From a virus, in the IMG/VR virus record IMGVR_UViG_3300042890_006069, positions 1 to 22,034 of that record: DNA of 22,034 nucleotides; one strand, 5' to 3'. Under the pieces are notes generated by a model, which was given only the letters and a program-made list of their open reading frames with translations, did not search any database and was not told the origin of the DNA. The position numbers and the translations under genes were made by a program. This document shows, in pieces, positions 1 through 19,520 of this stretch. Within the stretch, counting starts at the first letter, position 1. The number at the start of each line of letters is the position of its first letter.

Positions 1-101
1 CCCTGGAAGGCGGTCGCGCCGGCGCGGCCGACGTCCTCCATCGTGCGCTTGGCCTCGGAGCCGCCCTCGATGCCGAGGCGGATGGCGATGTTCTTCGGCA
101 T
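1..101 (-). CDS. Start of tail tape measure protein (partial)
   Basis: Only the first 33 codons are in the window; the gene continues off the left edge. The start ATG at 101 is preceded by a strong GAGGAGG ribosome site eight bases upstream. The fragment begins MPKNIAIRLGIEGG and continues with a charged stretch, the style of N-termini of tape measure proteins in alphaproteobacterial siphophages. It lies 13 bases after a tail assembly chaperone gene, the usual place for a tape measure gene. Tape measure proteins set tail length and are injected with the DNA. The call rests mostly on position, because so little sequence is visible. Confidence 0.5.
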   Translation of the reverse strand, partial: MPKNIAIRLGIEGGSEAKRTMEDVGRAGATAFQ

Positions 102-114: not shown

Positions 115-507
115 TCAGTGGTCGTTGGCGCTCGGCGGGGCAGCGGCGCCCGAGAGCGCCGGCCCCATCACGAGGCGGTCGAAGGCGTCGAAGGCGGGGA
201 ACACTTCGAGCAGCCGGTCGATGGTCTCGGGTGTCGGCTCGATCGGCTCGCCGTCCGCATCGCCGATGCCCTCCCAGGCCACGATGCAGGCTCGCGCAAA
301 GGATTTCGTCAGGGCGACCGATGCGAGGGCGTCAACCGCGGGATCCCGCGCCTCATCTACCTCCTGCGGGTGGTCGCGAAACACCTGCGCGGCGTCGGAG
401 CGAGCGCGGAGATGGTCCACCACCTCAAGGGGGCGCACCTGCACCCGGACACCCGGCAACAGGTCGATCCAACGGGGCTCGGTCGCATGGGCGTTCAGCT
501 TCAGCAT
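115..507 (-). CDS. Phage tail assembly chaperone
   Basis: A 130-residue protein. The central part (about residues 65-115) has the family look: a basic helix, AWEGIGDADGEPIEPTPE, then a helix with VFPAFDAFDRLVMGP. This pattern (WEGxGDxxGxP followed by TPE and a helix ending xxFxxxVxxP) is typical of small tail assembly chaperones encoded just before the tape measure gene. Such proteins coat the tape measure protein while the tail tube polymerises. The ATG at 507 has GAGGA seven bases upstream, overlapping the stop region of the TerS-like gene, so the two genes are probably cotranscribed. It is odd that it directly follows a terminase small subunit rather than head and tail-tube genes. Confidence 0.72.
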   Translation of the reverse strand: MLKLNAHATEPRWIDLLPGVRVQVRPLEVVDHLRARSDAAQVFRDHPQEVDEARDPAVDALASVALTKSFARACIVAWEGIGDADGEPIEPTPETIDRLLEVFPAFDAFDRLVMGPALSGAAAPPSANDH

Positions 508-516: not shown

Positions 517-1119
517 TCAGGCAGCGTTGGCGAAGTCAGCGGTGGGCTCGCCCAATTCGGCGAGGTGACGGCGCACCTCCCGGTCGAGAGCGGTGGTGAG
601 GTGCCGGGGCTCGATGCCGAGTTCATCGGCGAGTTCGACGGCGATCCGCGCCGGCCAGGCGATCCAGGCGTCCCGGATTGCCCTGGCTTCGGCGAAGAAC
701 GCCGCCTCGGCAGCGGCGCGGTTCACGAGGCTGCCTTCCTGCTCGGCCTGGTCGAGGCTGCGCTGGCGGGCCTTCAGAATCAGCTCGGCGGTGCGGGCCT
801 TGGCGAAGTCGACCGGGCCGGCGGCCTCGGCGCCCTCCTCGGCGAGAATCCGGGCCACGAGGCTGATCGCCTGCCGGGCCTCGGCCTCAGTGCTGACCTC
901 CGCCGCGCGCTGCGTACCTCCGGTGCGTACCTTGGGCTCGGTACGCACCTTGGTACGCACGGGATCGGTCGAGGCGCCCCAGGCCTCCCGGGCTGCGACC
1001 GGATCCAGCCGCCCGCCCGGCAGCACGCTGATGCGCTTGGCCTCGATGGCCTTGCGCACGGCGCCCTCGGAGACGCCGAGGATCTTGGCCAACTCTCGCC
1101 GCGAAACCCCTTCAGGCAT
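517..1119 (-). CDS. Terminase small subunit-like protein, second copy (cassette TerS)
   Basis: A 200-residue DNA-packaging protein. Residues 1-45 form a helix-turn-helix (RRELAKILGVSEGAVRKAIE), followed by a linker with three VRT repeats and a C-terminal half with AAEAAFF.EARAIRDAW.AWPARI and HLAELGEPT. The C-terminal half is nearly identical to that of the TerS at 9.7-10.4 kb, whereas the N-terminal DNA-binding half and linker are different. In TerS proteins the N-terminal part recognises cos or pac DNA and the rest oligomerises and contacts TerL. The protein therefore looks able to work with the phage TerL while recognising different DNA. It sits 42 bases past a cos-like element, but no TerL follows; the next gene is a tail chaperone. 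A degenerate duplicate is possible, but the frame is intact. Confidence 0.82.
   Translation of the reverse strand: MPEGVSRRELAKILGVSEGAVRKAIEAKRISVLPGGRLDPVAAREAWGASTDPVRTKVRTEPKVRTGGTQRAAEVSTEAEARQAISLVARILAEEGAEAAGPVDFAKARTAELILKARQRSLDQAEQEGSLVNRAAAEAAFFAEARAIRDAWIAWPARIAVELADELGIEPRHLTTALDREVRRHLAELGEPTADFANAA
911..960. repeat. Clustered inverted copies of GGTACGCAC in the cassette TerS gene
   Basis: Four copies lie within 50 bases: TGCGTACC at 911-918, GTGCGTACC at 923-931, GGTACGCACC at 940-949 and GGTACGCAC at 952-960. The first two point one way and the last two the other, giving an imperfect large dyad. A fifth copy, GTGCGTACC at 1121-1129, lies just upstream of the TerS start codon in non-coding DNA. 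The cluster encodes the VRT repeats of the linker, so part of the pattern could come from protein repetition. The mixed orientation and the non-coding copy suggest a DNA-level role, for example as TerS binding sites next to cos. Confidence 0.6.
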
Positions 1120-1161
1120 GGTGCGTACCTAGAATTTCTGGCTTGGCGCTGCGAACGGCCC

Positions 1162-1211
1162 GGGCCCCGACCACCCCTATACTGGCCGAGATCCCAGGGT
1201 CCCCGGCGGGG
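1162..1211 (-). other. Cos-like element, cassette copy
   Basis: Positions 1162-1204 match 10435-10477 at 36 of 43 bases with no gap: a 15-base identical block GGGCCCCGACCACCC, a 15-base spacer with 8 matches, and a 13-base identical block TCCCAGGGTCCCC. A short dyad follows (CCCC at 1201-1204, GGGG at 1208-1211), as in the other copy. Both copies lie in non-coding DNA immediately upstream of a terminase small subunit gene, where cos lies in lambda-type phages. On the minus strand the first block reads GGGTGGTCGGGGCCC, similar in style to a lambda-type cosN. The cleavage position cannot be read from sequence. Confidence 0.62.
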
Positions 1212-1224
1212 TGTCCGGGTGGGG

Positions 1225-1662
1225 TCAGCCCGGCCGACCCATCGTCATCGTCCGTAGGCCGGAGACCCGCTGAAGCTCGCGCCCGGCCCAGTCGGCGTCG
1301 ATGTTGGTGCCGGCGAGCGCATCGGTGCGTCCCTGCGGCTTCGGGGCGAGGCCCTGTCTCTGAAGCTCGCGCTGCATGCTGGCCTGACCGGCGGTCAGTC
1401 CGGGCTTGCTTTCGGCCTTCGGGGCGGCGGGCACGGGCAGCGGCTCGCGGGTGCTGGCGCCCAGGTTCGGGATCAGGGGCGTGCGGGCCGTGGGCGCGGG
1501 AGGCGCGCTGCCGTGGCGCTGATCATAGGCGGCGATGTCGGCCGCGAGTGCGTCGAAGGCGTGCTGCTCGTCGTCGGTGAGTTGCCGGGTGCGCACGATC
1601 GCCAGTTCCGCATCCATGCGGCTCTGAGCGGCGCGGCGCTCCTCTGCGGTGTGAATCGGCAT
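1225..1662 (-). CDS. Short scaffold-like protein (mimic of the phage scaffold)
   Basis: A 145-residue protein with an N-terminal charged helix (SRM.AELAIVRTRQLTDDEQ, then FDAL), a long Pro/Ala-rich middle and a C-terminal ASMQRELQRQGLAP segment. Both ends match the phage protein at 4259-4840, which has SRMTELATAARGRSMTDDEQ then FDAA at the N-terminus and ASMERELVRAGLKK at its C-terminus. The middle of the phage protein is absent. In that protein the ends plausibly self-associate and bind capsid, so a short version could alter head assembly, as satellite scaffolds do. That role is inference. The gene starts three bases after the ribbon-helix-helix gene and ends 20 bases from the cos-like core. 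Confidence 0.62.
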   Translation of the reverse strand: MPIHTAEERRAAQSRMDAELAIVRTRQLTDDEQHAFDALAADIAAYDQRHGSAPPAPTARTPLIPNLGASTREPLPVPAAPKAESKPGLTAGQASMQRELQRQGLAPKPQGRTDALAGTNIDADWAGRELQRVSGLRTMTMGRPG

Positions 1663-1665
1663 GGG

Positions 1666-1890
1666 TCAGCCTTTCAGATCTTCGGGACGGCCCGGCACGG
1701 AGCGGACGCGCACAAGGTCGGGGAGCGGTTGGACGGGCACGCCATCCATGACGAGGCGGCCGAACAGGGCGCCGCGGACGTAATCGGCGACGCTGACACC
1801 GCGCACTGAAGCGGCGCGACGAATGGCGGCCCCCACGTCCTCCGGGACGGAGGCACCAACGCGATCGGGCAAGGTGATGGGGTCCATCAT
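1666..1890 (-). CDS. Small ribbon-helix-helix-type regulator
   Basis: A 74-residue protein from the ATG at 1890 (a second ATG follows at 1887). Residues about 9-45 (RVGASVPEDVGAAIRRAA then SVRGVSVADYVRGAL) have the strand-helix-turn-helix spacing of the CopG/Arc ribbon-helix-helix fold: a beta-strand, a first helix and a second helix after VSVADYV. Such dimers bind short direct or inverted repeats and often repress their own operon. Four TGGACA half-sites lie 37-75 bases upstream of the start. It is translated just ahead of the scaffold-like gene, so it likely controls that gene and possibly packaging functions. An upstream in-frame start near 2010 is rejected because it would read through the operator repeats. 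Confidence 0.6.
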   Translation of the reverse strand: MMDPITLPDRVGASVPEDVGAAIRRAASVRGVSVADYVRGALFGRLVMDGVPVQPLPDLVRVRSVPGRPEDLKG

Positions 1891-1925
1891 CGGGCTAGCC
1901 TGCACCGAACAGGCTGCCCACGGGA

Positions 1926-1965
1926 GTGGACAAAACTGGACATCGGGGGTGGACAAACTGGACAT
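1926..1965 (-). promoter_or_regulatory. Tandem TGGACA operator-like repeats
   Basis: Two direct repeats, GTGGACAAAACTGGACAT at 1926-1943 and GTGGACAAACTGGACAT at 1949-1965, differ by one A. Each contains two TGGACA half-sites, giving four at 1927, 1937, 1950 and 1959, spaced 9 to 13 bases, about one helical turn. Arrays of this type are typical binding sites for ribbon-helix-helix dimers, and the next gene downstream on the minus strand encodes one. Autoregulation is inferred. Confidence 0.55.
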
Positions 1966-2067
1966 GCCGCTTCGGAGAGCGGCTTGAAAGAGCGGGAAGC
2001 ATTCCCCCAATTCCCCATCATTCCCATATGTTTGGGGAAAGAAATGGGGAAATAATATCGTTATATG

Positions 2068-2330
2068 TCAGTGGCTTAATGCGCTTTTCCCCAATTCCCC
2101 CGTTTTACCCAGGATGTATGCACCCTTACGCGCGCCTGCGGACGCGCGCCGCCGCGTGCGCGCCCGGCGGCGCGCGTCCGGGCGGGCGGGAATGCGTCTC
2201 GTCAGAATTTCGGGAAATGGGGGAAATAGGCCGCTCAAGTCAGAAAGCTATTTGCAATCAGTGGCTTGCTCTGTTCCCTTAATCCATTGCTTCAGGGGAA
2301 ACCGGGGAACCATTTTGTATCAGTGGCTTA
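2068..2330 (+). repeat. Three direct copies of TCAGTGGCTT
   Basis: TCAGTGGCTTA occurs at 2068-2078 and 2320-2330, and TCAGTGGCTT(G) at 2258-2268. The last copy overlaps the stop codon of the zinc-finger gene. Each is preceded by a short AT-rich run. They are interleaved with the TTCCCC motifs and may be a second class of iteron. Confidence 0.6.
2139..2180. repeat. Perfect 15-base inverted repeat in the origin-like region
   Basis: CGGACGCGCGCCGCC at 2139-2153 is the exact reverse complement of 2166-2180, with a 12-base loop. The stem is all G/C apart from one A-T pair. It lacks a T tract on either strand, so it is not a good intrinsic terminator. Its place between the two TTCCCC fields suggests a structural role at the origin. 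Confidence 0.75.
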
Positions 2331-2930
2331 GGCCTGCTTCGGTTGCCTGAGGCCCGCTGAAGCCTGGGGGAAGTCAGGCGGCAGGGCCAGATGAAGCGCG
2401 CTCCGGCGCAGCGCGTAAGCCGAGATCCTGCCGACGTCGGGGACGTACCGGACGTAGTTTCTGCCATCGGCCTCGGCTTTCCCGAGGAACCGCCCCCTGG
2501 CCAACAACAAGCCGCCCTCACGCTCAATCATCCGGCCGCCGAGCGCATCGCAGAGGCGGTCCCGGCGGAGATAGACAACATGCTCGTCGAACCAACCGTC
2601 CGTGCCGTCCGTGATCTCGCCGGGGGCGGCCGGCAGGATCGTGCGGCCCCATCGGTCCAGGATCCAAGTGCGCAAGGTGGCTGCGATCTCCCTTGCCTGC
2701 GCGCTGCCGGAAAAGGTCTGGGACGGCTTCCGGTAGTCCCCGCACCAGTCGGTAGCGCAGACCGCCGGCCACACACGCCGCCGTGAGGCGTCTCCCGCCC
2801 GAGCGGCCGGCATGCTGCGCCGGCATTCCCCATCGCCGAATCTACCTTCCGGCGGTTGGTCGCCGAATGGGGCCATGTAGCGGCACGAGCTGCAATTGCT
2901 TTTCAAGGTCGCCTCCTGGTGATGGGTCAT
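2328..2930 (-). CDS. Zinc-finger protein fused to a primase C-terminal-type domain
   Basis: A 200-residue protein from the ATG at 2930 (a GTG at 2936 is also possible). Residues 1-60 have a compact cysteine pattern, CSSC..., then GEC, then WPAVCATDWCGDY, probably binding zinc. Residues about 85-185 align with the end of the 982-residue phage primase/helicase: GWFDEHVVYL against GWFDVSTVYL, and YVRYVPDVGRISAYALRR against YVRYVRGIGKTTAYALKR. The primase, linker and ATPase parts are missing. In both places the gene ends at a TTCCCC-rich origin-like region, so the shared domain is a candidate origin-binding module. The protein could recruit replication enzymes to the cassette origin or compete for the phage one. 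Confidence 0.68.
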   Translation of the reverse strand: MTHHQEATLKSNCSSCRYMAPFGDQPPEGRFGDGECRRSMPAARAGDASRRRVWPAVCATDWCGDYRKPSQTFSGSAQAREIAATLRTWILDRWGRTILPAAPGEITDGTDGWFDEHVVYLRRDRLCDALGGRMIEREGGLLLARGRFLGKAEADGRNYVRYVPDVGRISAYALRRSALHLALPPDFPQASAGLRQPKQA

Positions 2931-2947
2931 GTTCACGGGGTGGGGCG

Positions 2948-3205
2948 TTATGGATCCTCGAGGGGCGGAAGGTCTCGCGCAGACACGTGCCAGCGGCCGG
3001 CAATCTTGCGGCCCTGACCGCGCCGAGCGCGCTTGATCCCCGTATCCTTCGAGACGTTCCAGGCGCGGCAGGCGACCGCCAGCGGCACCATGCCCGCAGG
3101 GACGGGCGAGGCGCCGTCGCGGGCCAAAGCGGCCTCGATGGAGGCTACGGTCGCCTTTGCGGTCCTCAGGGCGGCGAGGAGGCAGGCGCGCTCGTCAGGC
3201 GTCAT
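2948..3205 (-). CDS. Small DNA-binding protein with C-terminal helix-turn-helix
   Basis: An 85-residue protein. Residues 1-30 form an Ala-rich charged helix (MTPDERACLLAALRTAKATV). Residues about 38-80 (MVPLAVACRAWNVSKDTGIK, then RKIAGRWHVSARDLPPLE) match the layout of excisionase/MerR-like winged helix-turn-helix modules: a helix, NVSKDTxxKRARRG, then a short beta wing ending in a W-H-V strand. The start ATG at 3205 overlaps the stop of the SpoVG-like gene by 11 bases, so the genes are translationally linked. Its target is unknown. An upstream start at 3253 would give a longer overlap and a poorly conserved-looking N-terminus. Confidence 0.58.
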   Translation of the reverse strand: MTPDERACLLAALRTAKATVASIEAALARDGASPVPAGMVPLAVACRAWNVSKDTGIKRARRGQGRKIAGRWHVSARDLPPLEDP

Positions 3206-3476
3206 CGGCCGGCAGGACGCCGCCCAGCGCCTGGAAGGCTGCCACCGCGGCATCCCGAAGCTTCAGCCGGGTCTCATGGCTGTCGAACCGGAACGAGGCG
3301 TGGCGGTACGAGCAGCGCGGCAGGTCGACCATGGGGGTACCGCCCTCGTCCACGCGGAGCAGGCAGGAGCGAACGCGGACCAAGCCCAGGTCGCAATCGA
3401 ATCGCGCCACGATCCGGGAATGGCGATCGCCATCGGAGTCAGCAAGCCGGATGCCGGTCACGCGCAGGTCAAGCAT
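3195..3476 (-). CDS. SpoVG-like small protein, cassette copy
   Basis: A 93-residue protein from the ATG at 3476, chosen because GGGAGAG lies eight bases upstream. It is rich in predicted beta-strands, with a basic VRVRSCLLRVDEGG segment, a MVDLPR segment and a C-terminal helix (ETRLKLRDAAVAAFQALGG). The arrangement resembles the 108-residue phage protein at 17119-17445 (RLTIRDCTV, GLPGK, then a helix with AAVLAVLDA) and more distantly SpoVG, a small nucleic-acid-binding protein family. Overall identity to the phage protein is low, so homology is a suggestion from layout. It overlaps the AlpA-like gene by eight bases. Confidence 0.5.
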   Translation of the reverse strand: MLDLRVTGIRLADSDGDRHSRIVARFDCDLGLVRVRSCLLRVDEGGTPMVDLPRCSYRHASFRFDSHETRLKLRDAAVAAFQALGGVLPADDA

Positions 3477-3687
3477 CGGCACGGCTCTCCCGTGCGGCGG
3501 CCTCGCGCTCGGCGATACTGACGATCCAGGCCCGGATGGCGCTACGCTTGGCGCAGACGGTCTTGCCCACCTTGAACGTCGGCAGGCCGTGCTTGTCCTT
3601 CAGGTGGTAGACCTGCCGAGGTCGCCACCGGAACGCTTCGGCGATGGCGGGAACCCCATAAAGCATGTCGTCGTCACGATCTGTCAT
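3469..3687 (-). CDS. AlpA/excisionase-like helix-turn-helix regulator
   Basis: A 72-residue protein starting at the ATG at 3687, which has GAGGA six bases upstream. The core LYGVPAIAEAFRWRPRQVYH followed by KHGLPTFKVGKTVCAKRSAI is a winged helix-turn-helix of the AlpA/excisionase type: two helices, RQVYHLKDK recognition helix, then a GLPTFKVG wing and a closing helix. In P4-type elements and phage-inducible islands, AlpA-like proteins start the replication operon or direct excision. This is the first gene of the left cassette, just after the head-operon terminator, and four TGTCGCA repeats lie immediately upstream. No integrase is visible next to it. Confidence 0.66.
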   Translation of the reverse strand: MTDRDDDMLYGVPAIAEAFRWRPRQVYHLKDKHGLPTFKVGKTVCAKRSAIRAWIVSIAEREAAARESRADA

Positions 3688-3694
3688 GGCTTCC

Positions 3695-3731
3695 TCGCAT
3701 GTCGCATTTCTTGTCGCATCAGATGTCGCAC
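3695..3731. repeat. TGTCGCA repeats upstream of the AlpA-like gene
   Basis: TCGCAT begins at 3695, 3702 and 3714, and TCGCA again at 3726, the last two as TGTCGCAT and TGTCGCAC. Spacings are 7, 12 and 12 bases. The run ends eight bases before the AlpA-like start codon. It may be an operator or excisionase-binding array, though an alternative GTG start at 3759 would make it coding. Confidence 0.5.
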
Positions 3732-3806
3732 GGAGATGCGCGCAAACCGCGTAAGTCACGGTAATCGTTGGATTGTTGGTAACGGTCGCGAACGCGCCCC
3801 TACCAT

Positions 3807-3831
3807 AAAGAAAGGCCGCCCAGAGGCGGCC
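3807..3831 (-). terminator. Intrinsic terminator after the head operon
   Basis: On the minus strand GGCCGCC, loop TCTG, GGCGGCC is followed by TTTCTTT, a classic Rho-independent terminator. It lies 45 bases beyond the decoration protein stop and closes the packaging/head operon before the left cassette begins. Confidence 0.85.
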
Positions 3832-3875
3832 TAAGTCGTTGCATCATCTATGGTTTATCAGGAAAATCCGCTCTT

Positions 3876-4256
3876 TCAGGCTCCCTGGCGGACGATGATG
3901 CCCACCGCGCCGAGCTGGCCGTTGGCCGCCGCGCGCTTCGTGGCATCGTTGACGGTGGCCCCGTGGATGAGGCCGGCATGGCTGACGACGGCGTGGCGGG
4001 CCACGACGACGGCGGGCGCGTCGGCGCTGGTGGCGTCGACCGGGAAGACGAGGACCGCGACCGAGGTCTGCGAGCCGTCCGAGCCCGAGGCCGCATTCGG
4101 CACGTACTTGCCGGAGGCGGAGAGCTTGCCGAGCACCTGGCCGGACTTCAGCTTGCCGGAGCCGGCGGCGATCACCGCGGTATCGCGGCTGCGGTAGGAG
4201 CCGTCCTCGGACTTGAGCCAGTCGGAGGCGACGGGAGCGGTTTCGAGCAGAGCCAT
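3876..4256 (-). CDS. Head decoration protein (lambda gpD-like)
   Basis: A 126-residue protein beginning MALLETAPVASDWLKSEDGS, then a beta-rich body with DTAVIAAGSGKLKSGQVLGK and GKYVPNAASGSDGSQ, the layout of phage head decoration proteins (lambda D family). Those trimers bind the expanded capsid surface and stabilise it against DNA pressure. It starts two bases after the scaffold-like gene and is the last gene of the head operon. In lambda-like phages the major capsid gene follows directly; here a terminator follows and no capsid gene is present in the window. Confidence 0.85.
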   Translation of the reverse strand: MALLETAPVASDWLKSEDGSYRSRDTAVIAAGSGKLKSGQVLGKLSASGKYVPNAASGSDGSQTSVAVLVFPVDATSADAPAVVVARHAVVSHAGLIHGATVNDATKRAAANGQLGAVGIIVRQGA

Positions 4257-4258
4257 GA

Positions 4259-4840
4259 TCAGAGACCCTTCTTGAGGCCGGCGCGCACGAGCTCACGCTC
4301 CATGCTGGCGGCGGAGGCGGAGATGCCGGCATTGCCGACGGCGGCGGGGACGTGGGACGAGATCGAGGTCTTCTCCTCGGCCGCCACCAGCTTGTCGAAG
4401 AGCTCGGCGCGGACCTGCTCCACGGTCTTGCCCGAGGCGATCATCTGGGCGCCGAGGTCGGCCGGCAGGCTCGCGTCCTTGCGGCGCGCGAGCGCCACCA
4501 GGTCGTTGATCTTGCCGGCGGCGCCGATGCGCTCCTTGGCCTGATCCACCGAGACGCCCTCAGCGAGGAGCGTGGCGGCCATGGCGGGCACGCCGCCATC
4601 GACGCAGAGCCTGGCGATCTCGGCCGCGTCGGCGCGCGTCACGGCCTTGTCCTTCGGGCCCGTGGAGGCCTCGGCGGCGGTGATCTTCGCCTCGAGGTCG
4701 GTGAGGTCGCGCGAGGCAGCGTCGAAGTCGCGCTGCTCGTCGTCGGTCATTGAGCGGCCGCGGGCTGCGGTCGCCAGTTCGGTCATGCGGGAGGACGCCT
4801 TCGCGCGATCGCGACGAAGGCCAGCGATATCGCCAGGCAT
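4259..4840 (-). CDS. Scaffold-like head assembly protein
   Basis: A 193-residue, highly helical charged protein. The N-terminal third (about residues 8-60) is a likely coiled coil with SSRMTELATAARGRSMTDDE; the middle is Ala-rich; the end carries SASAASMERELVRAGLKKGL. Such small helical proteins encoded between the S49 protease and decoration or capsid genes act as internal scaffolds, either separate or as the C-terminal part of gpC. A good GGAGACAGGA site precedes the ATG at 4840. It is a separate gene here, 78 bases after the protease gene. A short relative is encoded in the left cassette at 1225-1662. I cannot exclude that it is a capsid pro-domain-type protein. Confidence 0.6.
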   Translation of the reverse strand: MPGDIAGLRRDRAKASSRMTELATAARGRSMTDDEQRDFDAASRDLTDLEAKITAAEASTGPKDKAVTRADAAEIARLCVDGGVPAMAATLLAEGVSVDQAKERIGAAGKINDLVALARRKDASLPADLGAQMIASGKTVEQVRAELFDKLVAAEEKTSISSHVPAAVGNAGISASAASMERELVRAGLKKGL

Positions 4841-4918
4841 TCCTGTCTCCGTTGTTGCTGGCAGGGGGGCGGGCGCCGGAGCGCCCTAACCCGGCCGAAG
4901 CCGGGATCTCGGGGGCGG

Positions 4919-5821
4919 CTACGGCCGCGCGGCCCGCGCGCGGCGCTCGGTGGCCGCCGTGCGGGTGAGGTCGGTGAGGCTGCGCTCGTAGGTCTGGACG
5001 CGGTCGGCCATGCCGGCGGCGACCGCGTCGGCGCCGACCTTGACGCCGCCGGCACCGAAATCGGTCTTCACCCGGGCGGCCGTGGTCTTCCGCCCGCGCG
5101 CCACGTCGGCGACGAACTGCGATTCGATGCTGTCGAGGAGCGAACGGATCTCGCCGATGCCCTCCTCGGACTGCGGGTCGGGCCGCTTGTTCGGGGCGCC
5201 GGACGAGACGATCTCGATGGCGAGATTGCCGGCCGCGTCCGGCTCGACCTGCTTCGTGATCGCCGCCACCACGCCGATCGAACCGACAATGCCGGTCTTC
5301 TCCACAACGAGCTCGCCCGCGGACGAGGCGAGCCAGTAGGCCGCGGATGCGCAGCTGCCGGTGACGTGCGCCAGGACGCGCTTGCGCCCGCGCATGGCGT
5401 AGATCTGGTCGGCCAGGGCGTTGATGCCGGTCGGGGAGCCGCCGGGCGAATCCACCATCAGCATGACGGCGCCGACGTCCTCGCTGTCCCGGGCGAGCTG
5501 CAGGTCCCGCGCGAGCATCGCCGCGGAGGTGCCGGTGCCCGACATCTCGGTCATCAGGTTGGCGCGCGGGAAGATCGGGCCGACCACCGGCACGATGGCG
5601 ACGCCCTCGCGGGTCAGCATGGCGTAGCGGGCGCCGTCGAGGCGCTGGGCGGTCGGGCCGGCCGCGGCGGCGAGGTCGAGCCGGAACCAGTCCTCGCCCT
5701 CGGCCGAGCGTCGATCCGCGCGCGCCTCGCGATCGAGGCTGGCGAGCGAGGCCATGAAGTGCAGGTAGTCGGGCCGGATGGCCCACGGCTCGGCCGTCAG
5801 GGCCCGAAGCGCAGCGGTCAT
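4919..5821 (-). CDS. S49 family head maturation protease (lambda gpC-like)
   Basis: A 300-residue ClpP-fold serine protease of the SppA/S49 type. VGPIFPRANLMTEMSGTG (from residue 80) and MLMVDSPGGSPTGI (about 120-133) match the fold, and GSCASAAYWLASSAGE (155-170) holds the probable catalytic serine 159. In lambda-like heads gpC degrades scaffold and trims portal during prohead maturation. It overlaps the portal gene by four bases (ATGA), the usual translational coupling. Length fits a protease without the fused C-terminal scaffold found in lambda C, consistent with the separate scaffold gene that follows. Confidence 0.92.
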   Translation of the reverse strand: MTAALRALTAEPWAIRPDYLHFMASLASLDREARADRRSAEGEDWFRLDLAAAAGPTAQRLDGARYAMLTREGVAIVPVVGPIFPRANLMTEMSGTGTSAAMLARDLQLARDSEDVGAVMLMVDSPGGSPTGINALADQIYAMRGRKRVLAHVTGSCASAAYWLASSAGELVVEKTGIVGSIGVVAAITKQVEPDAAGNLAIEIVSSGAPNKRPDPQSEEGIGEIRSLLDSIESQFVADVARGRKTTAARVKTDFGAGGVKVGADAVAAGMADRVQTYERSLTDLTRTAATERRARAARP

Positions 5822-7437
5822 GGTTCGTCACCCGGCTGGGATGGATCGTTGCCGCTCGGCGGATCGCTCGCGGCCGGGGCCGCGGCATCCTTCGCGGCGC
5901 GGCGGCCGTCGCTGGTGTAGGAGAGGCCGAGCGCGTCGGCCCGCTCGTTGTCGGCGGCGTTCTCGGCGTCGATCGCCTCGGAATCGTAGCCGCCCTCGGA
6001 GACCTTCTGCGTCCGGGTCGAGAGGCCGGCCTGTATTTCTTTGGTCTTGCCCTCCACGTCCTGAACGGGGTGGATGTACGGCCAGGACTGCGGGATCCAC
6101 TTCACGGCCAGCGCCTGCTGGCGCGTCATGCCCTCCGGCAGCGTCAGCTGGCCCGAGAGCAGGGCCATGTCGAACCAGCGCAGCCAGATCGGGCGGCACC
6201 ACTGGAACACGACGAGGTGGTGCTGCCAGCCCTCGACGGCGCGGCGGAAGTCGTTCAGCGCCGCGCGCAGGGTGCGGTCGTTGAGTTCGCCGTAGTCGCC
6301 GCTGAGGATCTCGTAGAGCAGCCCGACCGCCGCCGCGATGTTGCGCTTGGCCTCTCGGATGAAGACCTCGAACATCGGCCCGACATCCTTCGGGTCCGAG
6401 AAGACCATGTCCTCGCCGTCGGCCAGCACCTGCAGCGTGCCGGGCTCGAAATCCAGGGTGGCCGCGCCGTCCTCGTCGGGCTGGCCAGTGCCGAGGGGGC
6501 CACCGCCGGGAACCGGCTCGGTGGTCTCGTCGAAGACGCGCTTGATGAAGCCGACGAACCGGGCGGCGTTCTTCTTCCGGACGAGCTCGGCATCGAAGTA
6601 GGCGTCGAGGTCGTAGAGGGTGCGCAGGGCCCGGGCGAGCCAGGGCTCGCCGCGGTCCTGCCCGGGCCGCATCGCCCGGAAGAGGTGGCAGATATCGGCC
6701 GCCGGGACCTGCGTCTCGTCCAGGCCGGCCGCCGTCAGCACGCCGTCGCCAGGGTGCTCGCGGTAGAGGTAGTAGCCGGTCCGCTTGCCGATCGCGTCGT
6801 ACTGGATGCCCTGCCGGATCCGGCTGCTGGCGTCGGTCTTGAGATGCGGGCAGTGGTCGCCTTCCAGGACCTGCAGCTGCAAGGGGACCGGCAGGCCGTC
6901 CTCGGGGCGGCGCGTGCGCAGCCGGGTGAAGGTCTCGCCGCCCTCGACGAGACCGCGCACCGCGATGGCCTGCAGGCCGTAGAAGTCGTGCGCGCCGACG
7001 CTGTCGGCCTGGTCGGTCCATTCCAGCCAGAGGCGCTGGATCTCGGCGCGGAAGGCCGCGTCCTCGAGCTTGACCCGCTTGGCCTCCTCCTTCGAAAGCC
7101 CCCGGGTCGAGCGCGCCGCGATCGAGCGCGGCACGATGCCGGTGCCGATGATGTTCGAGACCAGCTTGTCGACCGCCGCACCGGCCAGCGGGTTCTTCCT
7201 AGTCTGGTCGCGCGACTTCCGCCGCAGCTCGTCCAGCGCGTAGCTGATCGCGCTGTTCGGTCCGTAGCTACCGACCCGCCAGGACCGCGAGCGCCGCCCG
7301 CTGCCGCCCGCAACGTCGTAGGCCAGGGCCTCGCTCGGACCGTCGGCGGTCCCGCCATCGAGGTCGAGCGCCTGCGGCTCGATGTACTCGCCGGTCCCCT
7401 TGATCCGGAACCGGACGGGATGCGCCGAGGCTACCAC
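5818..7437 (-). CDS. Portal protein (lambda gpB-like)
   Basis: A 539-residue portal protein of the lambda family. Visible hallmarks are a Tyr-rich basic region with RRKSRDQTRKNPLAGAAVDK and LVSNIIGTGIVPRS, a middle with FTRLRTRRPEDGLPVPLQLQ then VLEGDHCP, and a C-terminal half with AAAVGLLYEILSGDYGELND followed by a helix leading into GWQHHLV. Portals form the dodecameric ring through which DNA enters and leaves the head. The start is a GTG at 7437, overlapping the gpW-like gene by seven bases. The last 60 residues are Ala/Asp/Pro-rich, as is common. Nothing suggests decay. Confidence 0.95.
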   Translation of the reverse strand: MVASAHPVRFRIKGTGEYIEPQALDLDGGTADGPSEALAYDVAGGSGRRSRSWRVGSYGPNSAISYALDELRRKSRDQTRKNPLAGAAVDKLVSNIIGTGIVPRSIAARSTRGLSKEEAKRVKLEDAAFRAEIQRLWLEWTDQADSVGAHDFYGLQAIAVRGLVEGGETFTRLRTRRPEDGLPVPLQLQVLEGDHCPHLKTDASSRIRQGIQYDAIGKRTGYYLYREHPGDGVLTAAGLDETQVPAADICHLFRAMRPGQDRGEPWLARALRTLYDLDAYFDAELVRKKNAARFVGFIKRVFDETTEPVPGGGPLGTGQPDEDGAATLDFEPGTLQVLADGEDMVFSDPKDVGPMFEVFIREAKRNIAAAVGLLYEILSGDYGELNDRTLRAALNDFRRAVEGWQHHLVVFQWCRPIWLRWFDMALLSGQLTLPEGMTRQQALAVKWIPQSWPYIHPVQDVEGKTKEIQAGLSTRTQKVSEGGYDSEAIDAENAADNERADALGLSYTSDGRRAAKDAAAPAASDPPSGNDPSQPGDEP

Positions 7438-7691
7438 CCGCTGCGCCCCGTCATGACGACCTGGCGCGTGCGGCGCGGCGCGACGATTCCGGCGCTCGCC
7501 TCGGCAAGGCCGATCCGCCGCGCGAGATCGGCGTCGGCCTTCCGCATCTCGTCATAGCTCCGGTAGGTCGTGCGACCGCCGTTGTCGGCCTGCTCGACGG
7601 TGAGCACGCCGCTGCCCATGGCGCGTTGCAGGCTCGCACGCTGCGCCCGCAGCTTCGCGAGCTCCTGTTCAGGGGTGTCGGCCATGGTCAC
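7431..7691 (-). CDS. Head-tail joining protein (gpW-like)
   Basis: An 86-residue protein. PEQELAKLRAQRASLQRAMG forms the first helix, a beta hairpin follows (GVLTVEQADNGGRTTYRSYD), and a second helix, EMRKADADLARRIG, closes the fold. This helix-hairpin-helix layout with the TYRSYDEM motif is the lambda gpW pattern. gpW plugs the portal and provides the binding surface for gpFII and the tail. The GTG at 7691 overlaps the TerL stop by four bases; an ATG two codons later (7685) is an equal candidate. Gene order TerL-W-portal is exactly that of lambda. Confidence 0.88.
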   Translation of the reverse strand: MTMADTPEQELAKLRAQRASLQRAMGSGVLTVEQADNGGRTTYRSYDEMRKADADLARRIGLAEASAGIVAPRRTRQVVMTGRSGW

Positions 7692-9778
7692 CTCATCGGC
7701 CGGTTGCTGACCCGGCTGCGCCGAACGACGCGGCGGTGCTCGTTCCGCGCGGCGAGCGTCCGGGCCGCGACCTCGGGGGCGACCGCCGCCTCATCCTGCG
7801 CGGGCCGCGCCCGCTCGATGCCGAGCAGCGCTTCGAGCTCGCGCCAGTGGGTCTCGCGCCAGCGGTCCCAGCCGCGCATCGCGGCCAGCGCGCGGGCATA
7901 GTTCGCGCAGTCCAGCCACTCGTTCCGGCGCCCACCGATCGGCACCCACTCGCGCCGGGTTCGGCCCCGGACAACGGTGACGATCAGCTCCTCGGCGGTG
8001 AGCTGCCGAACGCCGTCCTCGGTCACGTCCCGCGGCAGGTGGACGAAGCCGGCCGGGAAGGCCTGGTCCGCCGGGGGCCGTTGCAGCCCGAGGCAGCCCA
8101 TCAGCTCCTGCTTGCAGAACGAGGCGCCGACCCGGACCGTCTTGAGGCCGCGCCGGAGCTTCTTCCCGGCGGCCGTCGAGTCCTTCGAGCCGACCCCGAG
8201 GAACGCGCTCGAATAGCTGTCCTGGCCGTCGATCGCGTGGACGTTGCCGCGGCCGGCCTGGGTGCGGACGAAGGCATAGACCTCGGCGGTGAAGGCGCTG
8301 GAATCGATGCCCCAATCCCGCACCGCCATCTCGGCGCCGCTCTCGTGCTCCCAGGTCTCGCCGAACATCGCCTCGAGGTCGGCCCAGACCTTCGCCCGGG
8401 CCGTGTCGCCGGGGAGCACCCGGTGCTCGACCAGCCAACGCTCGCGGTTGCGCCCGAAGCCCCAGACGGTGACCTCGATGCGGTCCTTCTGGACGTCGGC
8501 CCCGCCGAACAGGATCAGCGCGCCCTGCGGGACCTTGCCGGACAGGTACGTCCCGCGCCGTGCGTAGACGTCCTGCCACTCGGGCGCGTCGGCGCCCTCC
8601 TTCCAGGTGCGGGCGAGCTGCGTGTTGAAGAAGGTCCGCAAGGCTTCCGGTCCCCGCCGCAACGCCCGCGCGAACTTCGCCGCCGTCTCCCGAATCGTCT
8701 GCTTCGGCGCGTAGAGCTTCGAGGCGACGCCGCCGGCATGCTCGTTCGGGACGGCCTGCGCCCCGCAATGCCGGCAGAGCGCCCGCCGCACGCCGTGGGC
8801 CTGGGGCGCCCAGCGCTCCGGCACCTGCGGCTCGCCGCAGCAGGTGAAGGCCTTCGTCTGCCGCCACTCGATCCGCTTCAGGGCGCCCAGGCGCTGGGCC
8901 TCGGTCCACGGCCGCTCGCAGCCGACGCACTCGTACCGCGCCGTGTCCGGCCGGATCTTGCCGGCCTCGTCCCTGTCGAAGCGGACCTGCTCCCATTCCA
9001 GCGACTGCCAAGTGCCGCAGCCCGGGTGCGGGCAGCAAACGAAAGCCTTGCGCTGGTCGCTCTCTTCGTAGCTCGCCTCGATCGCGCTCCGGCCGGAGAT
9101 CGTCGGGGAGCAGGCCAGCACGGTCAGGCTGTTCGCCTTGAACTCGGCCTGCCGCTCCTCGGCGAGGTCGATCGGCGGGCCCTCGCCGCCGGCCGAGAGG
9201 GGGTACTTGTCGATCTCGTCGCAGACCAGCAGCCGGATCGGCCGCATGGCGAGGTTGGTCGGGCTGTTCGCGCCGACGAGCGTAATGTGCCCGCCGGGGA
9301 ACTGCTTGTGCGACAGGGTCGCGCCCGCGTCCCGGGCCTTGGCCTCGCCGAACAGGTCGGTCAGGACCTTGGTGTCCCGGATCATCGGCGCGAGCCGGTC
9401 CTTCGAGAAGGTCTCCGCCGCGTCGTCCTTCGGGAACACGCCGAGCATCGGGCAGGGATCGACGTGGGCGAAGCGGCCGATGACGTTCTCGATCAGCGTC
9501 GTCTTCAGCAGCTGCGTGCACGCCATCAGCGAGATCTTGCTGACGCCCGGCTCGGTGGCCCAGAGCATCGGGCCGCGGGCGACCTCGACGCGCGAGACGA
9601 AGAACTTCCCGCCGTTCGAGCTTTCCTTGCTCAGCTTCCGGTGGCGCTCGGCCCACTGCACCACGTCGAGGTTCGGCGGCGGCGTCATCCCGCGCCGCCA
9701 TGACCGGCGCAGGCTGGCGGTGTCAGCCGTCCTCGGGTTGCTGGGGCTCGCCGAGTTCGGCGAGGTGCTGTTGAACAT
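7688..9778 (-). CDS. Terminase large subunit (lambda gpA family)
   Basis: A 696-residue packaging motor ATPase/nuclease. A deviant Walker A (ACTQLLKTT, residues 86-94) and a Walker B (LLVCDE, 183-188) lie in the N-terminal ATPase. Cys pairs (CCPHPGCG, CVGC, CRHCG) mark the zinc-containing region of gpA-type terminases. The C-terminal half contains the nuclease-type segment beginning LILFGGADVQKDRIEV. It cuts cos and pumps DNA into the prohead. It overlaps the TerS gene by 56 bases; a later in-frame ATG at 9688 would remove a conserved-looking N-terminal helix (SLRRSWRRG), so the upstream start is kept. It is the only large subunit in the window and would have to serve both TerS proteins. Confidence 0.95.
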   Translation of the reverse strand: MFNSTSPNSASPSNPRTADTASLRRSWRRGMTPPPNLDVVQWAERHRKLSKESSNGGKFFVSRVEVARGPMLWATEPGVSKISLMACTQLLKTTLIENVIGRFAHVDPCPMLGVFPKDDAAETFSKDRLAPMIRDTKVLTDLFGEAKARDAGATLSHKQFPGGHITLVGANSPTNLAMRPIRLLVCDEIDKYPLSAGGEGPPIDLAEERQAEFKANSLTVLACSPTISGRSAIEASYEESDQRKAFVCCPHPGCGTWQSLEWEQVRFDRDEAGKIRPDTARYECVGCERPWTEAQRLGALKRIEWRQTKAFTCCGEPQVPERWAPQAHGVRRALCRHCGAQAVPNEHAGGVASKLYAPKQTIRETAAKFARALRRGPEALRTFFNTQLARTWKEGADAPEWQDVYARRGTYLSGKVPQGALILFGGADVQKDRIEVTVWGFGRNRERWLVEHRVLPGDTARAKVWADLEAMFGETWEHESGAEMAVRDWGIDSSAFTAEVYAFVRTQAGRGNVHAIDGQDSYSSAFLGVGSKDSTAAGKKLRRGLKTVRVGASFCKQELMGCLGLQRPPADQAFPAGFVHLPRDVTEDGVRQLTAEELIVTVVRGRTRREWVPIGGRRNEWLDCANYARALAAMRGWDRWRETHWRELEALLGIERARPAQDEAAVAPEVAARTLAARNEHRRVVRRSRVSNRPMR

Positions 9779-10355
9779 AGGTGGCGAGGACCTGGGTCAG
9801 CGTCCGGGCATCAACCTTCAACTCGGCGGCCATCTCGATGCTCACGCGGGCCGGCCAGGCGAGCCAGGCGTCGCGGATCGCGCGGGCCTCGTCGAAGAAG
9901 GCGGCCTCCGCCGCGTCGCGGTCGACCAGCTTGCCCTGCTTGACCAGGTACTCCTGCCGCCGGAGCAGCCCGAGATGGTTTTCCTTGCGCTGCGCCGCCT
10001 GGATCAGCGGGAGGTTGGGGTTCTCCGGATCGAACTCTGGCCCGCCCTCCGGCGCGGTGCCGGGCTCGGCGGGACGGGGCGGCGGCTCAGACCGCGGGGC
10101 TGGGGGCGGGGGCGGAAGCGCCCGCTTCGATTCCACCGGCCGCTCGCGCGGATCCGGCTCCTCCTTCGGTACGGTCCGGATCGGGCGGTGCGTCGTGCCA
10201 CCCCGATTGGTCGCCGGCCGCTGGTCGAGGTTCCATTCGGTGGCCTCGACCTCAATCCGCCCGTCTCCGGTCAGGCTGAGCAGGCCCTGCCCCTTCCACT
10301 TCGTGACGATCGCCTTCGAGACGCCGCGGTGCCGGGCGAACTCGGCTTGGCTCAT
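9723..10355 (-). CDS. Terminase small subunit (phage TerS)
   Basis: A 210-residue protein. Residues about 1-30 form a winged helix-turn-helix (MSQAEFARHRGVSKAIVTKW), followed by a Pro-rich linker and a helical C-terminal half with AAEAAFFDEARAIRDAW and QHLAELGEPQ. It recognises cos and loads TerL. I chose the ATG at 10355 because the upstream GTG at 10388 is itself part of a tandem CGTTCAC repeat; that start would add 11 residues and cannot be excluded. The C-terminal half is almost the same as in the left-cassette protein (517-1119) while the DNA-binding half is not. The cos-like core lies about 80 bases upstream. Confidence 0.9.
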   Translation of the reverse strand: MSQAEFARHRGVSKAIVTKWKGQGLLSLTGDGRIEVEATEWNLDQRPATNRGGTTHRPIRTVPKEEPDPRERPVESKRALPPPPPAPRSEPPPRPAEPGTAPEGGPEFDPENPNLPLIQAAQRKENHLGLLRRQEYLVKQGKLVDRDAAEAAFFDEARAIRDAWLAWPARVSIEMAAELKVDARTLTQVLATYVQQHLAELGEPQQPEDG

Positions 10356-10368
10356 CGTCCGGTCGGGG

Positions 10369-10402
10369 CGTTCACTCTGCGCGTTCACCGTTCACCGTTC
10401 AC
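10369..10402. repeat. CGTTCAC repeats at the phage TerS start
   Basis: Three perfect head-to-tail copies of CGTTCAC run from 10382 to 10402, and a fourth sits at 10369-10375. They lie between the cos-like core and the TerS start at 10355, where lambda has its cosB terminase-binding sites. The left cassette has a different repeat (GGTACGCAC) in the matching place. Confidence 0.72.
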
Positions 10403-10434
10403 GGGTTTTGAGACCCCAGCGCTAGAAATCGTTG

Positions 10435-10487
10435 GGGCCCCGACCACCCGTATTTGGGTCGACTTCCCAGGGTCCCCCGCATGGGGG
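10435..10487 (-). other. Cos-like element, phage copy
   Basis: The two blocks GGGCCCCGACCACCC (10435-10449) and TCCCAGGGTCCCC (10465-10477), 15 bases apart, recur with the same spacing in the left cassette. A dyad CCCCC-GCAT-GGGGG (10474-10487) adjoins, like the shorter dyad in the other copy. The element sits in the 100-base non-coding gap just before the packaging operon, the canonical cos position. Which bond the terminase cuts is unknown. Confidence 0.65.
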
Positions 10488-10497
10488 TGGGGGTGGC

Positions 10498-10758
10498 CTA
10501 CCCCTTGGGGTCTGACCCGCCCGCGCTGTCGAGGTGCGCCGCGATCTGCCGTCCCGTCGCTGTGCCCTGCAGGTCGATCACCCCGCTCACCCTGACTCGA
10601 CGCCAGCGGTAGACCGGGCGCCAGTTCATCGGGCTATGCGGGGCTCCGGGCAGCCAGGTGTTGACGGTGCGGGTCTCCTCGACCTCGTAGGCCAGCCGGC
10701 CGAGCCAGAGGCCGCGGAGACGTGTCCGCCCGGTCGGCGTCCAGTCCGCGGCGCTCAC
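10498..10758 (-). CDS. Small late-region protein of unknown function
   Basis: An 86-residue protein starting at a GTG at 10758 that overlaps the preceding stop by four bases (GTGA). It is basic and Trp-rich (TRLRGLWLGRLAYEVEETR, then WRPVYRWRRVRVSGV), probably beta-rich, with no motif I recognise. Small proteins of this kind commonly sit just ahead of cos and TerS in alphaproteobacterial prophages. The stop lies about 20 bases before the cos-like element. Function is not assigned. Confidence 0.62.
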   Translation of the reverse strand: MSAADWTPTGRTRLRGLWLGRLAYEVEETRTVNTWLPGAPHSPMNWRPVYRWRRVRVSGVIDLQGTATGRQIAAHLDSAGGSDPKG

Positions 10759-10991
10759 TGCCGATCCGGTGCTCCGTCGGGCGCCTCGGGCCGCTCCATC
10801 CAGTGCGTCGCCCGCCAGCCCTTCGGCAGTCCCGACCAGCAGGCGGCGCGGTTGCACATGCTGTCGCCGTTGTCCCAGCGGCAATCCGGGAAGCGCTCCC
10901 CGACGAAGCGGTCACCGTCAGCGAGCCAGATCTTGGCCCAGAGGTCCACCTTGCGATCCTTCGGGACGGTCTCGATGCTGCTCCAAGTCAT
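10755..10991 (-). CDS. Small phage protein (DUF551-like)
   Basis: A 78-residue protein from the ATG at 10991. MTWSSIETVPKDRKVDLWAK, a central W.W.NGD region and a final THWMERPEAPDG follow the well-known small phage protein layout (W..IETAPKD...L.W...THWMP.PEPP) of the DUF551 type. The function of that family is not established. The gene is first in the short minus-strand pair ahead of cos. Its 5' end lies close to the divergent promoter of the 42-residue plus-strand gene. Confidence 0.68.
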   Translation of the reverse strand: MTWSSIETVPKDRKVDLWAKIWLADGDRFVGERFPDCRWDNGDSMCNRAACWSGLPKGWRATHWMERPEAPDGAPDRQ

Positions 10992-11008
10992 GCGAACAAG
11001 ACCTCGAA

Positions 11009-11079
11009 AATACTTCGCTCGACCCGCGAATACTTGTTGACGTCTCAAGTATTCGTCTGTATAACTAAAAGTACAGACA
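11009..11079 (+). promoter_or_regulatory. Strong promoter with operator dyad for the 42-residue gene
   Basis: A sigma70-type promoter has -35 TTGACG (11037-11042), a 17-base spacer and -10 TATAAC (11060-11065). A perfect 10-base inverted repeat, CGAATACTTG (11027-11036) and CAAGTATTCG (11046-11055), brackets the -35 box, and a further AATACTT lies at 11009-11015. GTCTGTA (11056-11062) and TACAGAC (11073-11079) form a second dyad over the -10. The site therefore looks tightly regulated by an unidentified dimeric protein. Confidence 0.75.
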
Positions 11080-11095
11080 GAGACGGAGAGAGCAA

Positions 11096-11224
11096 ATGTT
11101 CCAGATCATCGACACCAAGACCAACAAGGTGATCCTCGCCAAGATCAGCGAGCACGAGGCTCACAAGCGGGTGGATCTCCTGAACAGCGCCGGGATCGTC
11201 CGGTACAAGGCCCGGGCGATGTGA
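11096..11224 (+). CDS. 42-residue moron-like protein
   Basis: A short plus-strand gene among minus-strand neighbours. The protein starts MFQIIDTKTNKVILAKISEH and ends VRYKARAM. It is small, basic and predicted beta-beta-helix, with no recognised family. It has its own strong promoter, a GGAGAG ribosome site seven bases before the ATG, and a hairpin five bases after the stop. A self-contained transcription unit inserted against the direction of the phage operons is the definition of a moron, often expressed in lysogens. A regulatory peptide is equally possible. The transcription signals make me confident it is a gene; I cannot say what it does. Confidence 0.72.
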   Translation: MFQIIDTKTNKVILAKISEHEAHKRVDLLNSAGIVRYKARAM

Positions 11225-11228
11225 GAGA

Positions 11229-11244
11229 GGGGGCGAAAGCCCCC
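11229..11244. terminator. Hairpin after the 42-residue gene
   Basis: GGGGGC, loop GAAA, GCCCCC: a six-pair G/C stem closed by a stable GNRA tetraloop. There is no T run on plus; on minus it is followed by TCTCTC. It is most likely a terminator for the plus-strand unit, possibly working in both directions. Confidence 0.55.
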
Positions 11245-11397
11245 GACCGCCTCTCCACAAGATGTTCTAAATCGTGCCCTCTTGGTGCACGGCCGAGGCC
11301 TCAAGCCTACAAAGCAGAGAAGCGGTGCAACCCGTCCCCGAAGCGGCTCCACATCGATCCCAGAGCGGGAGAGTTAAGCGGCGACCCGGGGGATATA

Positions 11398-12105
11398 CTA
11401 GACCACCTGCACATCTGCAATGCCGAGCACAGCAGGCGTCGCCCGCCCGAAGATGCTGATGGCGACCTTCACCCGGTCTCCGGGCATGATCTCCTCGACG
11501 ATCGCCGGGAAGCTCGCGAAGGGACCGGTCACCACCAACACGCTCTGCCCGACCTGGATCCCGACCGGCTGGACGATCTCGTTCTTCGCCAACGCGTCGA
11601 GGAACTCCTGCAATCTCACCGGGTCGAGCCGAGCCGGCTTCATCACCAGCCCCGCGACGTTGCCCGCGGTCTCCTCCTCCTGCGCGGGCTGGCAGACGAT
11701 CTCCGCAATGCCCGGCAGAGCCTGCACCTCGCCGAGATGCGCGCTGTCCCGCACGCCGATGATCAGGGTCCGGATCAGCAGGGGGACATGCCGAACGACG
11801 CGGCGGCCTCGGCGGACCACGACCGAGGACGTGCGCGGCCGGTAGGCCGGGACCTTCATCCGTTCCAGGGATTCGTCGAGCGCCTTACGGCCGAGACTGC
11901 CGAGGCGAGGACCGGTGCGGGCCAGATGCCAGGACAAGGCGCCGTCGATCGCCTCCGAGGCCCGACCGCGTACCGGCTCGGCGGTGTCCTGCTTGGGCGC
12001 GCCAGGGGGGCATCCTTGAGAGGCCGCCGCACCCATCTCGGCCTTTCGCTGGGCTCGACGCTGCCGCCGGGCCCGCTCTCGCTCGCGCTTGCCGGACTTG
12101 CTCAC
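11398..12105 (-). CDS. NusG-family transcription antitermination protein
   Basis: A 235-residue protein. A basic N-terminal tail (SGKRERERARRQRRAQRKAE) precedes an NGN-like domain (about 95-165, RHVPLLIRTLIIGVRDSAHL then VQALPGIAEIV). A KOW domain closes the protein (about 185-235, IQVGQSVLVVTGPFASFPAI then DRVKVAISIFGRATPAVLG). NusG paralogues bind RNA polymerase and, when specialised, prevent termination on chosen operons. It lies at the junction between the early/replication block and the packaging block, where lambda has Q, so a late antiterminator is the natural role; that is inference. The start used is a GTG at 12105. The extra arginine-rich tail is absent from housekeeping NusG and could bind RNA. 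Confidence 0.85.
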   Translation of the reverse strand: MSKSGKRERERARRQRRAQRKAEMGAAASQGCPPGAPKQDTAEPVRGRASEAIDGALSWHLARTGPRLGSLGRKALDESLERMKVPAYRPRTSSVVVRRGRRVVRHVPLLIRTLIIGVRDSAHLGEVQALPGIAEIVCQPAQEEETAGNVAGLVMKPARLDPVRLQEFLDALAKNEIVQPVGIQVGQSVLVVTGPFASFPAIVEEIMPGDRVKVAISIFGRATPAVLGIADVQVV

Positions 12106-12423
12106 CGGTCACCCCCGAGGCTCATCTGCCCTTTCCCCATTTTTCCCAACCTTTTCCAGATAAGAGAAAGAGTAAGATGCTGATCTATAAGCGTTTCCCA
12201 GATTCCCCATTTTCCCGCATGTTCGCGCTGCCTATACGCGCGCGCGCAATCGGACAGGTCGTCTCGGCTACCGCCGATATTCACCTCACGCGCGCACGCG
12301 ATGGGGCATCTCCGGAACCTGGGAATTTGGGGAATCTGGGAAAGCGTTTTAATTCAGGCACTTAGCCCGACCCCGCCTTGGGGAAACGCGGGAAACTTGG
12401 GGAAGGCGGCGCCGGAACGAGCA
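12106..12423. other. Putative phage replication origin
   Basis: No convincing gene. The region carries many TTCCC/GGGAA motifs: TTCCCC near 12128 and 12203, TTTCCC near 12194 and 12211, and inverted GGGAA/GGGGAA copies near 12321, 12329, 12338, 12380, 12390 and 12398. TTTCCCAGATTCCCC (12194-12208) is the exact reverse complement of 12329-12343. Between the arms lie a CGCGCGCGCGC run and a second CG-rich run. It directly follows the primase/helicase gene. The left cassette has the same plan at 1991-2330 without sharing a long identical stretch. An origin is the best reading. Confidence 0.6.
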
Positions 12424-17116: not shown

Positions 17117-17118
17117 GC

Positions 17119-17445
17119 TCAGGCCGCCTCGCTCTGTCCGAGGCGCGCGTCGAGCACGGCCAGCACCGCGGCCGAGAATGCGTCGCCGACTTCCTTGGAA
17201 TCGAAGGCGCAGGTGGGCGTGTACTGGACCTTCCCGTCGCGCTTCACGAGCTCGCGGTCGGCATTGATCTGAGCCTTGCCCGGCAGGCCGATCCACCGGC
17301 GGCCGTGGCTCTCGTTCACCGTGCAGTCGCGGATCGTCAGGCGCATCGCCGGGATCCGGACGTTGACGAAGCCGAGCAGCGTCCCACGCGCCAGGGGCTT
17401 CCACTCGGAGATCTCGACTTGGAGCTTACCGCCGGGCTGGGTCAT
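17119..17445 (-). CDS. SpoVG-like small protein, phage copy
   Basis: A 108-residue protein: LQVEISEWKPLARGTLLGFV, then MRLTIRDCTVNE, RRWIGLPGK and a C-terminal helix with VGDAFSAAVLAVLDA. This layout (W.P...G.L..V.......DC...G..WI.LP) recurs in many alphaproteobacterial phages and is related to the SpoVG nucleic-acid-binding fold. It sits directly before the helicase, so a single-strand DNA binding or recombination accessory role is plausible. The short cassette protein at 3195-3476 shows the same layout with low identity. Confidence 0.7.
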   Translation of the reverse strand: MTQPGGKLQVEISEWKPLARGTLLGFVNVRIPAMRLTIRDCTVNESHGRRWIGLPGKAQINADRELVKRDGKVQYTPTCAFDSKEVGDAFSAAVLAVLDARLGQSEAA

Positions 17446-17448
17446 GGT

Positions 17449-17622: not shown

Positions 17623-17632
17623 GTGAACGCCC

Positions 17633-18028: not shown

Positions 18029-18029
18029 G

Positions 18030-19512: not shown

Positions 19513-19520
19513 GGCGCCGC

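Follow-up and report, generated by a model that had tools for sequence, protein, structure and literature searches.

The AlpA end of a satellite probably interrupts a Methylobacterium-type lambda-like prophage between its head decoration and capsid genes

Helper-embedded phage-inducible chromosomal islands (HE-PICIs) are satellites that reside within the late genes of lambdoid phages, and late-gene embedding has been reported for their single integrase clade; integrase and AlpA stand at the upstream end of the element, and the published set was described among Enterobacteriaceae (PMC10111431). In another group of satellites, the PICI-like elements (PLEs) of Vibrio, a satellite tape measure protein (TMP) and tail assembly chaperone replace those of the helper and make chimeric tails, as established experimentally; according to that study, a tape measure had not been reported from any further satellite, putative tmp genes being listed in capsid-forming PICIs (cf-PICIs) (PMC12987554). 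Here, we analyze a viral DNA stretch of 22,034 bases, hereafter the window, which is the whole of IMG/VR record IMGVR_UViG_3300042890_006069 from its position 1 and whose nearest relatives are Methylobacterium phages and satellites. The window is probably a lambda-like prophage of Methylobacterium type in which the AlpA end of a satellite has been inserted exactly after the gene for the head decoration protein D, that is, between D and the major capsid gene. The functions given below are, for every part, those suggested by sequence.

The phage part of the window covers 3876-20823. On the minus strand, read leftward, it contains genes for a Cro-like protein, regulators, a nuclease, a helicase, a methyltransferase, a primase and an antiterminator-like protein, together with cos and the small (TerS) and large (TerL) terminase subunits, and after TerL come the head-tail adaptor, portal, protease, scaffold and D; the repressor is encoded on the plus strand at 19792. 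D itself is intact (3876-4256, minus strand; PF02924, E 2e-32). In 29 relatives sharing the D gene, a spacer of 3-75 nt separates D from the start of the major capsid gene. In the window, however, our scan revealed no major capsid gene, and the similarity to D-bearing relatives stops at the D stop codon. Based on the D-capsid order of the relatives, we place the junction between phage and satellite, presumably attL, at 3875/3876.

From 3875, directly after the D stop, the satellite cassette spans leftward to the left end of the contig. Its limits thus differ from those of the original prediction, which had placed the right one at 3806 and the left one at 517, although the tail chaperone (115-507) and the TMP start (1-101) are part of the same element. 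Leftward from the junction, the order is GACTTA motifs and a terminator, AlpA, a SpoVG-like protein, a small helix-turn-helix (HTH)-like protein, a primase C-terminal-domain protein, an iteron origin, a ribbon-helix-helix (RHH) protein, a short scaffold, cos, TerS, the chaperone and the TMP start, with cassette genes and late genes all on one strand. The intrinsic terminator (3813-3832, minus strand) had been assigned to the head operon, but because that operon is interrupted before the capsid gene we regard it as the left end of the satellite itself. Terminators alike in place and form were found in five relatives embedded in prophages (S064, S045A, S045B, L250 and L251). A motif scan of the 22-kb window gave two matches of the arm-type GACTTA class (3752-3757 and 3832-3837, both minus strand), both at the satellite left end, and 10 occurrences were present in 1,168 bp of aligned left ends from the five embedded relatives and the window. 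The predicted AlpA-like regulator or excisionase (3469-3687, minus strand) was confirmed by matches to PHROG 18541 (E 1e-16) and PHROG 66 (E 7e-4). It is 66% identical to alpA of S045A and 70% to that of L251, both of which lie at the left end of satellites embedded in late genes.

The relatives come from a search of 111 genomes of the genus Methylobacterium, some with short contigs; with one genome per species, the satellite count is a minimum. Gene ends in the relatives are approximate, as given by a simple codon-usage gene caller, and S064, S020 and similar labels denote stretches assembled from genomes G064, G020 and so on. Five alpA-first elements were found inside prophage late genes, one in TerL, two in portal and two in capsid genes, and in all of them the halves of the target gene flank the element on both sides. 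S064, in a portal gene, is 21.3 kb long, with 11 identical core bases at both ends and the gene halves in one frame. Genome G045 has one element in TerL and another in portal, the latter 10.65 kb long with the core TGCAGGTGCT, whereas L250 (G109) and L251 (G108) occupy two different capsid-type genes, their targets being judged by eye from split frames and neighbors, with no family search. In all five, terminator and AlpA come first and a Bro-N-like protein and an integrase come last, beside the rest of the target gene. The original prediction was correct in that no integrase is visible beside AlpA in the window; such an absence is nevertheless expected, because the closest relatives have theirs at the far end, which here is off the contig. 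In G045 (C2, 772000-831999; L230/L231/L226), a single prophage is interrupted twice, in TerL and in portal. Besides its first integrase and Bro-N-like gene, the element in TerL contains another of each, and it may be a composite of two satellites in tandem. A PD-Lambda-4 defence gene is present in the portal-embedded S064 (L125, G064:C12, 8940-12737; PADLOC bit score 1065).

Since helper-embedded satellites are already published (PMC10111431), the earlier statement that this kind of element had not been seen described was too strong. The HE-PICI 11capE of E. coli NRG857c, whose region we examined directly, resembles the window in being co-oriented with the late genes, with AlpA near the upstream end and a cos shared with the helper. 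It lies inside a lambda-like late operon, as the window satellite probably does, and it sits in the capsid gene, near the D/capsid boundary presumably occupied in the window. On the other hand, the five embedded relatives differ from HE-PICIs in having AlpA at the upstream end but the integrase at the far end. The S064 integrase has only 19% identity to that of 11capE (E 0.18), and the integrases of the relatives are separate in the tree. Also unlike 11capE, S064 and the visible part of the window lack a full primase and have their own TerS, chaperone and TMP.

Some observations weigh against an insertion at this site. The window offers a single junction, at the D stop, as a test of insertion in a helper late operon, with integrase, attR and capsid gene beyond the contig, and for this reason site-specific insertion between D and capsid is inferred from the relatives. 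The junction was found in no viral contig; D is intact, whereas the target genes of the relatives are split; a protein of ~340 aa that the other satellites typically carry is missing; and the prophages hosting S064 and the G045 elements are decayed, so a different phage may serve as the actual helper. One visible junction in a single IMG/VR record, with no identical junction in viral contigs, could also be the product of a chimeric assembly, in which satellite and prophage contigs of one sample were joined at 3876. This explanation is unlikely: the break falls exactly at a gene end within the late operon, both sides are co-oriented, and the sequence past it is the conserved AlpA end, with GACTTA and terminator, which borders disrupted late genes in five further insertions and which a random join would rarely pick. 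The visible decay of the S064 and G045 prophages might suggest instead that the window derives from a deletion of the capsid-to-tail segment, which either fused a neighboring satellite and prophage or left a remnant of a decayed embedded satellite. We consider such a history quite improbable, as all visible frames on either side are intact and the break joins the D stop codon to the satellite left end.

An insertion of satellite origin is further indicated by the parts that the window holds twice. The satellite TerS (517-1119, minus strand; PHROG 57, E 1e-26) is, as had been claimed, related to the TerS of the window phage (9723-10388, minus strand; PHROG 57, E 1e-24), with 35% identity (E 2e-16), and has relatives at 60-70% identity. 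The predicted duplication of cos was likewise recovered. The core GGGACCCTGG..TATACGGGTGGTCGGGGCCC..CTAGCGCCAGG was found a single time, immediately upstream of TerS, in the window satellite (cos at about 1131-1221, minus strand), in each of 12 further satellites and in the phages that we examined, among them the helper in the window (10405-10494, minus strand). The core is followed by the presumed TerS-binding cosB, whose type tracks that of TerS. Type 1 TerS comprises three sub-types, with cosB repeats GTGAACG, GTAACG/GTGACAG and GGCAACA, while types 2, 3 and 4 pair with CTAGGTRCGCACC, CTTAACA and TGATGCAACA, respectively. The window phage is of type 1, with GTGAACG repeats, and the window satellite of type 2 (CTAGGTACGCACC), both following the same cosN core. 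In S064, the satellite cos matches that of the prophage remnant around it at 98.8% identity over 85 bp. The pattern fits a satellite TerS that would redirect the helper TerL to satellite DNA. Copies of a cosB-like motif (GGTRCGCACC/GGTGCGTACC) also lie inside the satellite TerS gene (window 905-960). An orphan TerS 88% identical to that of the window satellite, with no cos just upstream, was found among host genes of M. symbioticum (L011/L054, G003:C58, 7866-8461).

The origin is duplicated as well. TTCCCC/GGGGAA iterons occur 20 times in the window, 14 of them within 755 bp in two origin-like regions (Poisson P ~4e-21), and both regions, at 1999-2310 in the satellite and 12133-12404 in the phage, are located just downstream of a primase C-terminal domain. 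In the satellite, this domain forms a stand-alone protein (2328-2936, minus strand), whose claimed kinship to the phage primase holds at 34% identity over 135 aa (residues 829-963 of the primase; blastp, E 6e-15) and which has no detectable relative in viral contigs. Apart from this domain, neither a primase nor a helicase is encoded in the visible part of the satellite, and takeover of helper replication may be its strategy. The satellite scaffold-like protein (1225-1662, minus strand) is a shortened relative of the phage scaffold (4259-4840), as predicted, according to both blastp (E 6e-5) and alignment. It retains both ends of the phage protein, and the N-terminal TDDEQ..FDA block and RELxRxGL-like motifs are preserved, with much of the middle replaced by a Pro-rich linker, and might favor small heads; viral contigs contained no detectable relative.

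The cassette could alternatively be a permanent and normal part of one mosaic phage genome rather than a separate mobile element, considering that real phages (L048 and L050) also rely on type-2 TerS as their main one. This is highly improbable, given that one genome would have cos, TerS, origin and scaffold in duplicate but no capsid gene, and given that the same modules occur elsewhere as autonomous, integrase-bearing elements. The duplicated parts and the missing capsid gene also led us to discard a reading of the cassette as ordinary phage late genes.

The tail genes are attributed to the satellite because the spacing between them is of the satellite kind. The chaperone (115-507, minus strand; PHROG 313, E 2e-13) lies between TerS and TMP, as it does in S020, S064, S074, S108 and S058, and its stop is separated from the TMP start by 13 nt in the window and by 19-26 nt in satellites, compared with 216-718 nt in phages. 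This gap led us to reject a reading of the window tail genes as the helper's own. The TMP (1-101, minus strand), cut by the contig end, starts with MPKNIAIRLGIEGGSEAKRTMEDVGRAG.., matching the starts of satellite TMPs such as those of L009/L012 (MPQNIAIRLQVEGGAEIKRSLEDAGRAG), the L012 protein being a PF06791 member (E 2e-38). Satellite TMPs measure 826-1112 aa (n=7) against 1165-1319 aa for 15 closed phage TMPs; the seven include L216, a chaperone-TMP pair with a satellite-type gap in a putative satellite. A rule that satellite TMPs are always shorter is weakened by the phage-type locus L220 (G013), whose TMP is 926 aa long and closer than any other phage TMP to several of the satellite ones. 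Satellite-encoded TMP and chaperone are features shared with the Vibrio PLEs, which differ in helper and site, parasitizing the lytic phage ICP1; judged by host and type of helper, membership in the PLEs themselves is implausible.

The original inference, that the cassette is a satellite or derives from one and depends on this type of phage, is supported by chromosomal elements of the same family. We found 12 more Methylobacterium elements with the same cos-TerS module, and family members contain an RHH protein, the ~340 aa protein, scaffold, cos and TerS. Scaffold, RHH and chaperone-TMP pairs recur in these stand-alone elements, so the cassette genes are not confined to complete phages, even though type-2 TerS is shared with some. 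TerL, portal, capsid and D were absent from all ten satellites scanned, one of which has captured a protease, and the relatives have an integrase and a phage-type cos. Six elements have tape measure genes after TerS, five of them also the chaperone. A repeated tRNA-Ser half gene, located by motif, flanks two members of the family at distances of 21.09 and 20.95 kb, and a third shows the same repeat on two contigs; an exact-repeat search for att sites in five elements gave nothing convincing. In a second satellite of G064 (L156, G064:C34), a head maturation protease 73% identical to that of the window phage adjoins a very short scaffold-like frame. The ~340 aa protein marks the family (L009, L010, L013, S020, S064, S108 and others); it is predicted, with low confidence (pLDDT 67.5), to form a long helical hairpin, and a role as head-size factor is conceivable.

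The small proteins of the cassette are also shared with these elements. The RHH protein (1666-1890, minus strand) is 42-61% identical to the protein at the equivalent place in S020, S108, S064 and L009, while its match to PF07878 (E 0.01) is weak, under the curated cut-off. The SpoVG-like protein (3195-3476, minus strand) is conserved in a second satellite, S064 (46% identity), although its label comes from resemblance by look, with no Pfam or PHROG match. Beside AlpA, the small HTH-like protein (2948-3205, minus strand) is 45% identical to the S064 protein at the same place.

In AlpA, a putative replication module, cos, the integrase of the relatives and the lack of visible capsid and lytic genes, the family resembles Gram-negative PICIs such as EcCICFT073 (PMC6092414). 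From the core of these islands, the window has the AlpA-like gene, the origin and, of the primase, the C-terminal domain, with the integrase beyond the contig. It departs from them in carrying a tail chaperone and TMP, since Gram-negative PICIs are defined by having no phage structural or lytic genes (Fillol-Salom 2018). Their size of about 12-15 kb compares with 20.95, 21.09 and 21.3 kb in three mapped relatives and 10.65 kb in one; the window element is partial.

The arrangement suggests how such a satellite may operate. At rest, its end terminator and its length would stand between the late promoter and the genes for capsid and tail. Upon helper induction, the satellite would be excised by the integrase encoded off the left end, with AlpA acting as excisionase or activator, and the late operon would be rejoined. 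The iteron origin and the stand-alone primase domain may then recruit the helper primase and helicase. The satellite TerS would recognize its own cosB and, together with the helper TerL, cut the shared cosN. The shortened scaffold would favor small heads, and with its own chaperone and tape measure the satellite may assemble tails of satellite type from helper subunits.

Helper embedding and satellite tape measures were thus already known, from HE-PICIs and Vibrio PLEs respectively; this lineage combines both, with integrases outside the E. coli clade. A literature search that left out most subscription papers and all preprints found no paper joining "phage satellite" with Methylobacterium. 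On balance, we favor, with some reserve, the view that Methylobacterium (Alphaproteobacteria) harbors a distinct clade of helper-embedded satellites, whose integrases fall outside that of the E. coli HE-PICIs and lie at the opposite end, and that this clade independently came to target head genes of prophages (TerL, portal, capsid and, here, the D/capsid boundary). At least S064 and the window would also carry parts redirecting packaging (cosB-matched TerS), the head scaffold and tail length (chaperone and TMP), so that one element would control both the helper late operon and virion make-up. If this is true, satellites have evolved more than once to hold the late operon of the helper hostage, and the replacement of tails is more widespread among them. 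The set supplies genomes and sites for measuring excision, particle size and tail length. Within one genus, phages and satellites combine a common cosN with interchangeable cosB-TerS pairs, which amounts to a natural experiment in DNA selection by terminase.

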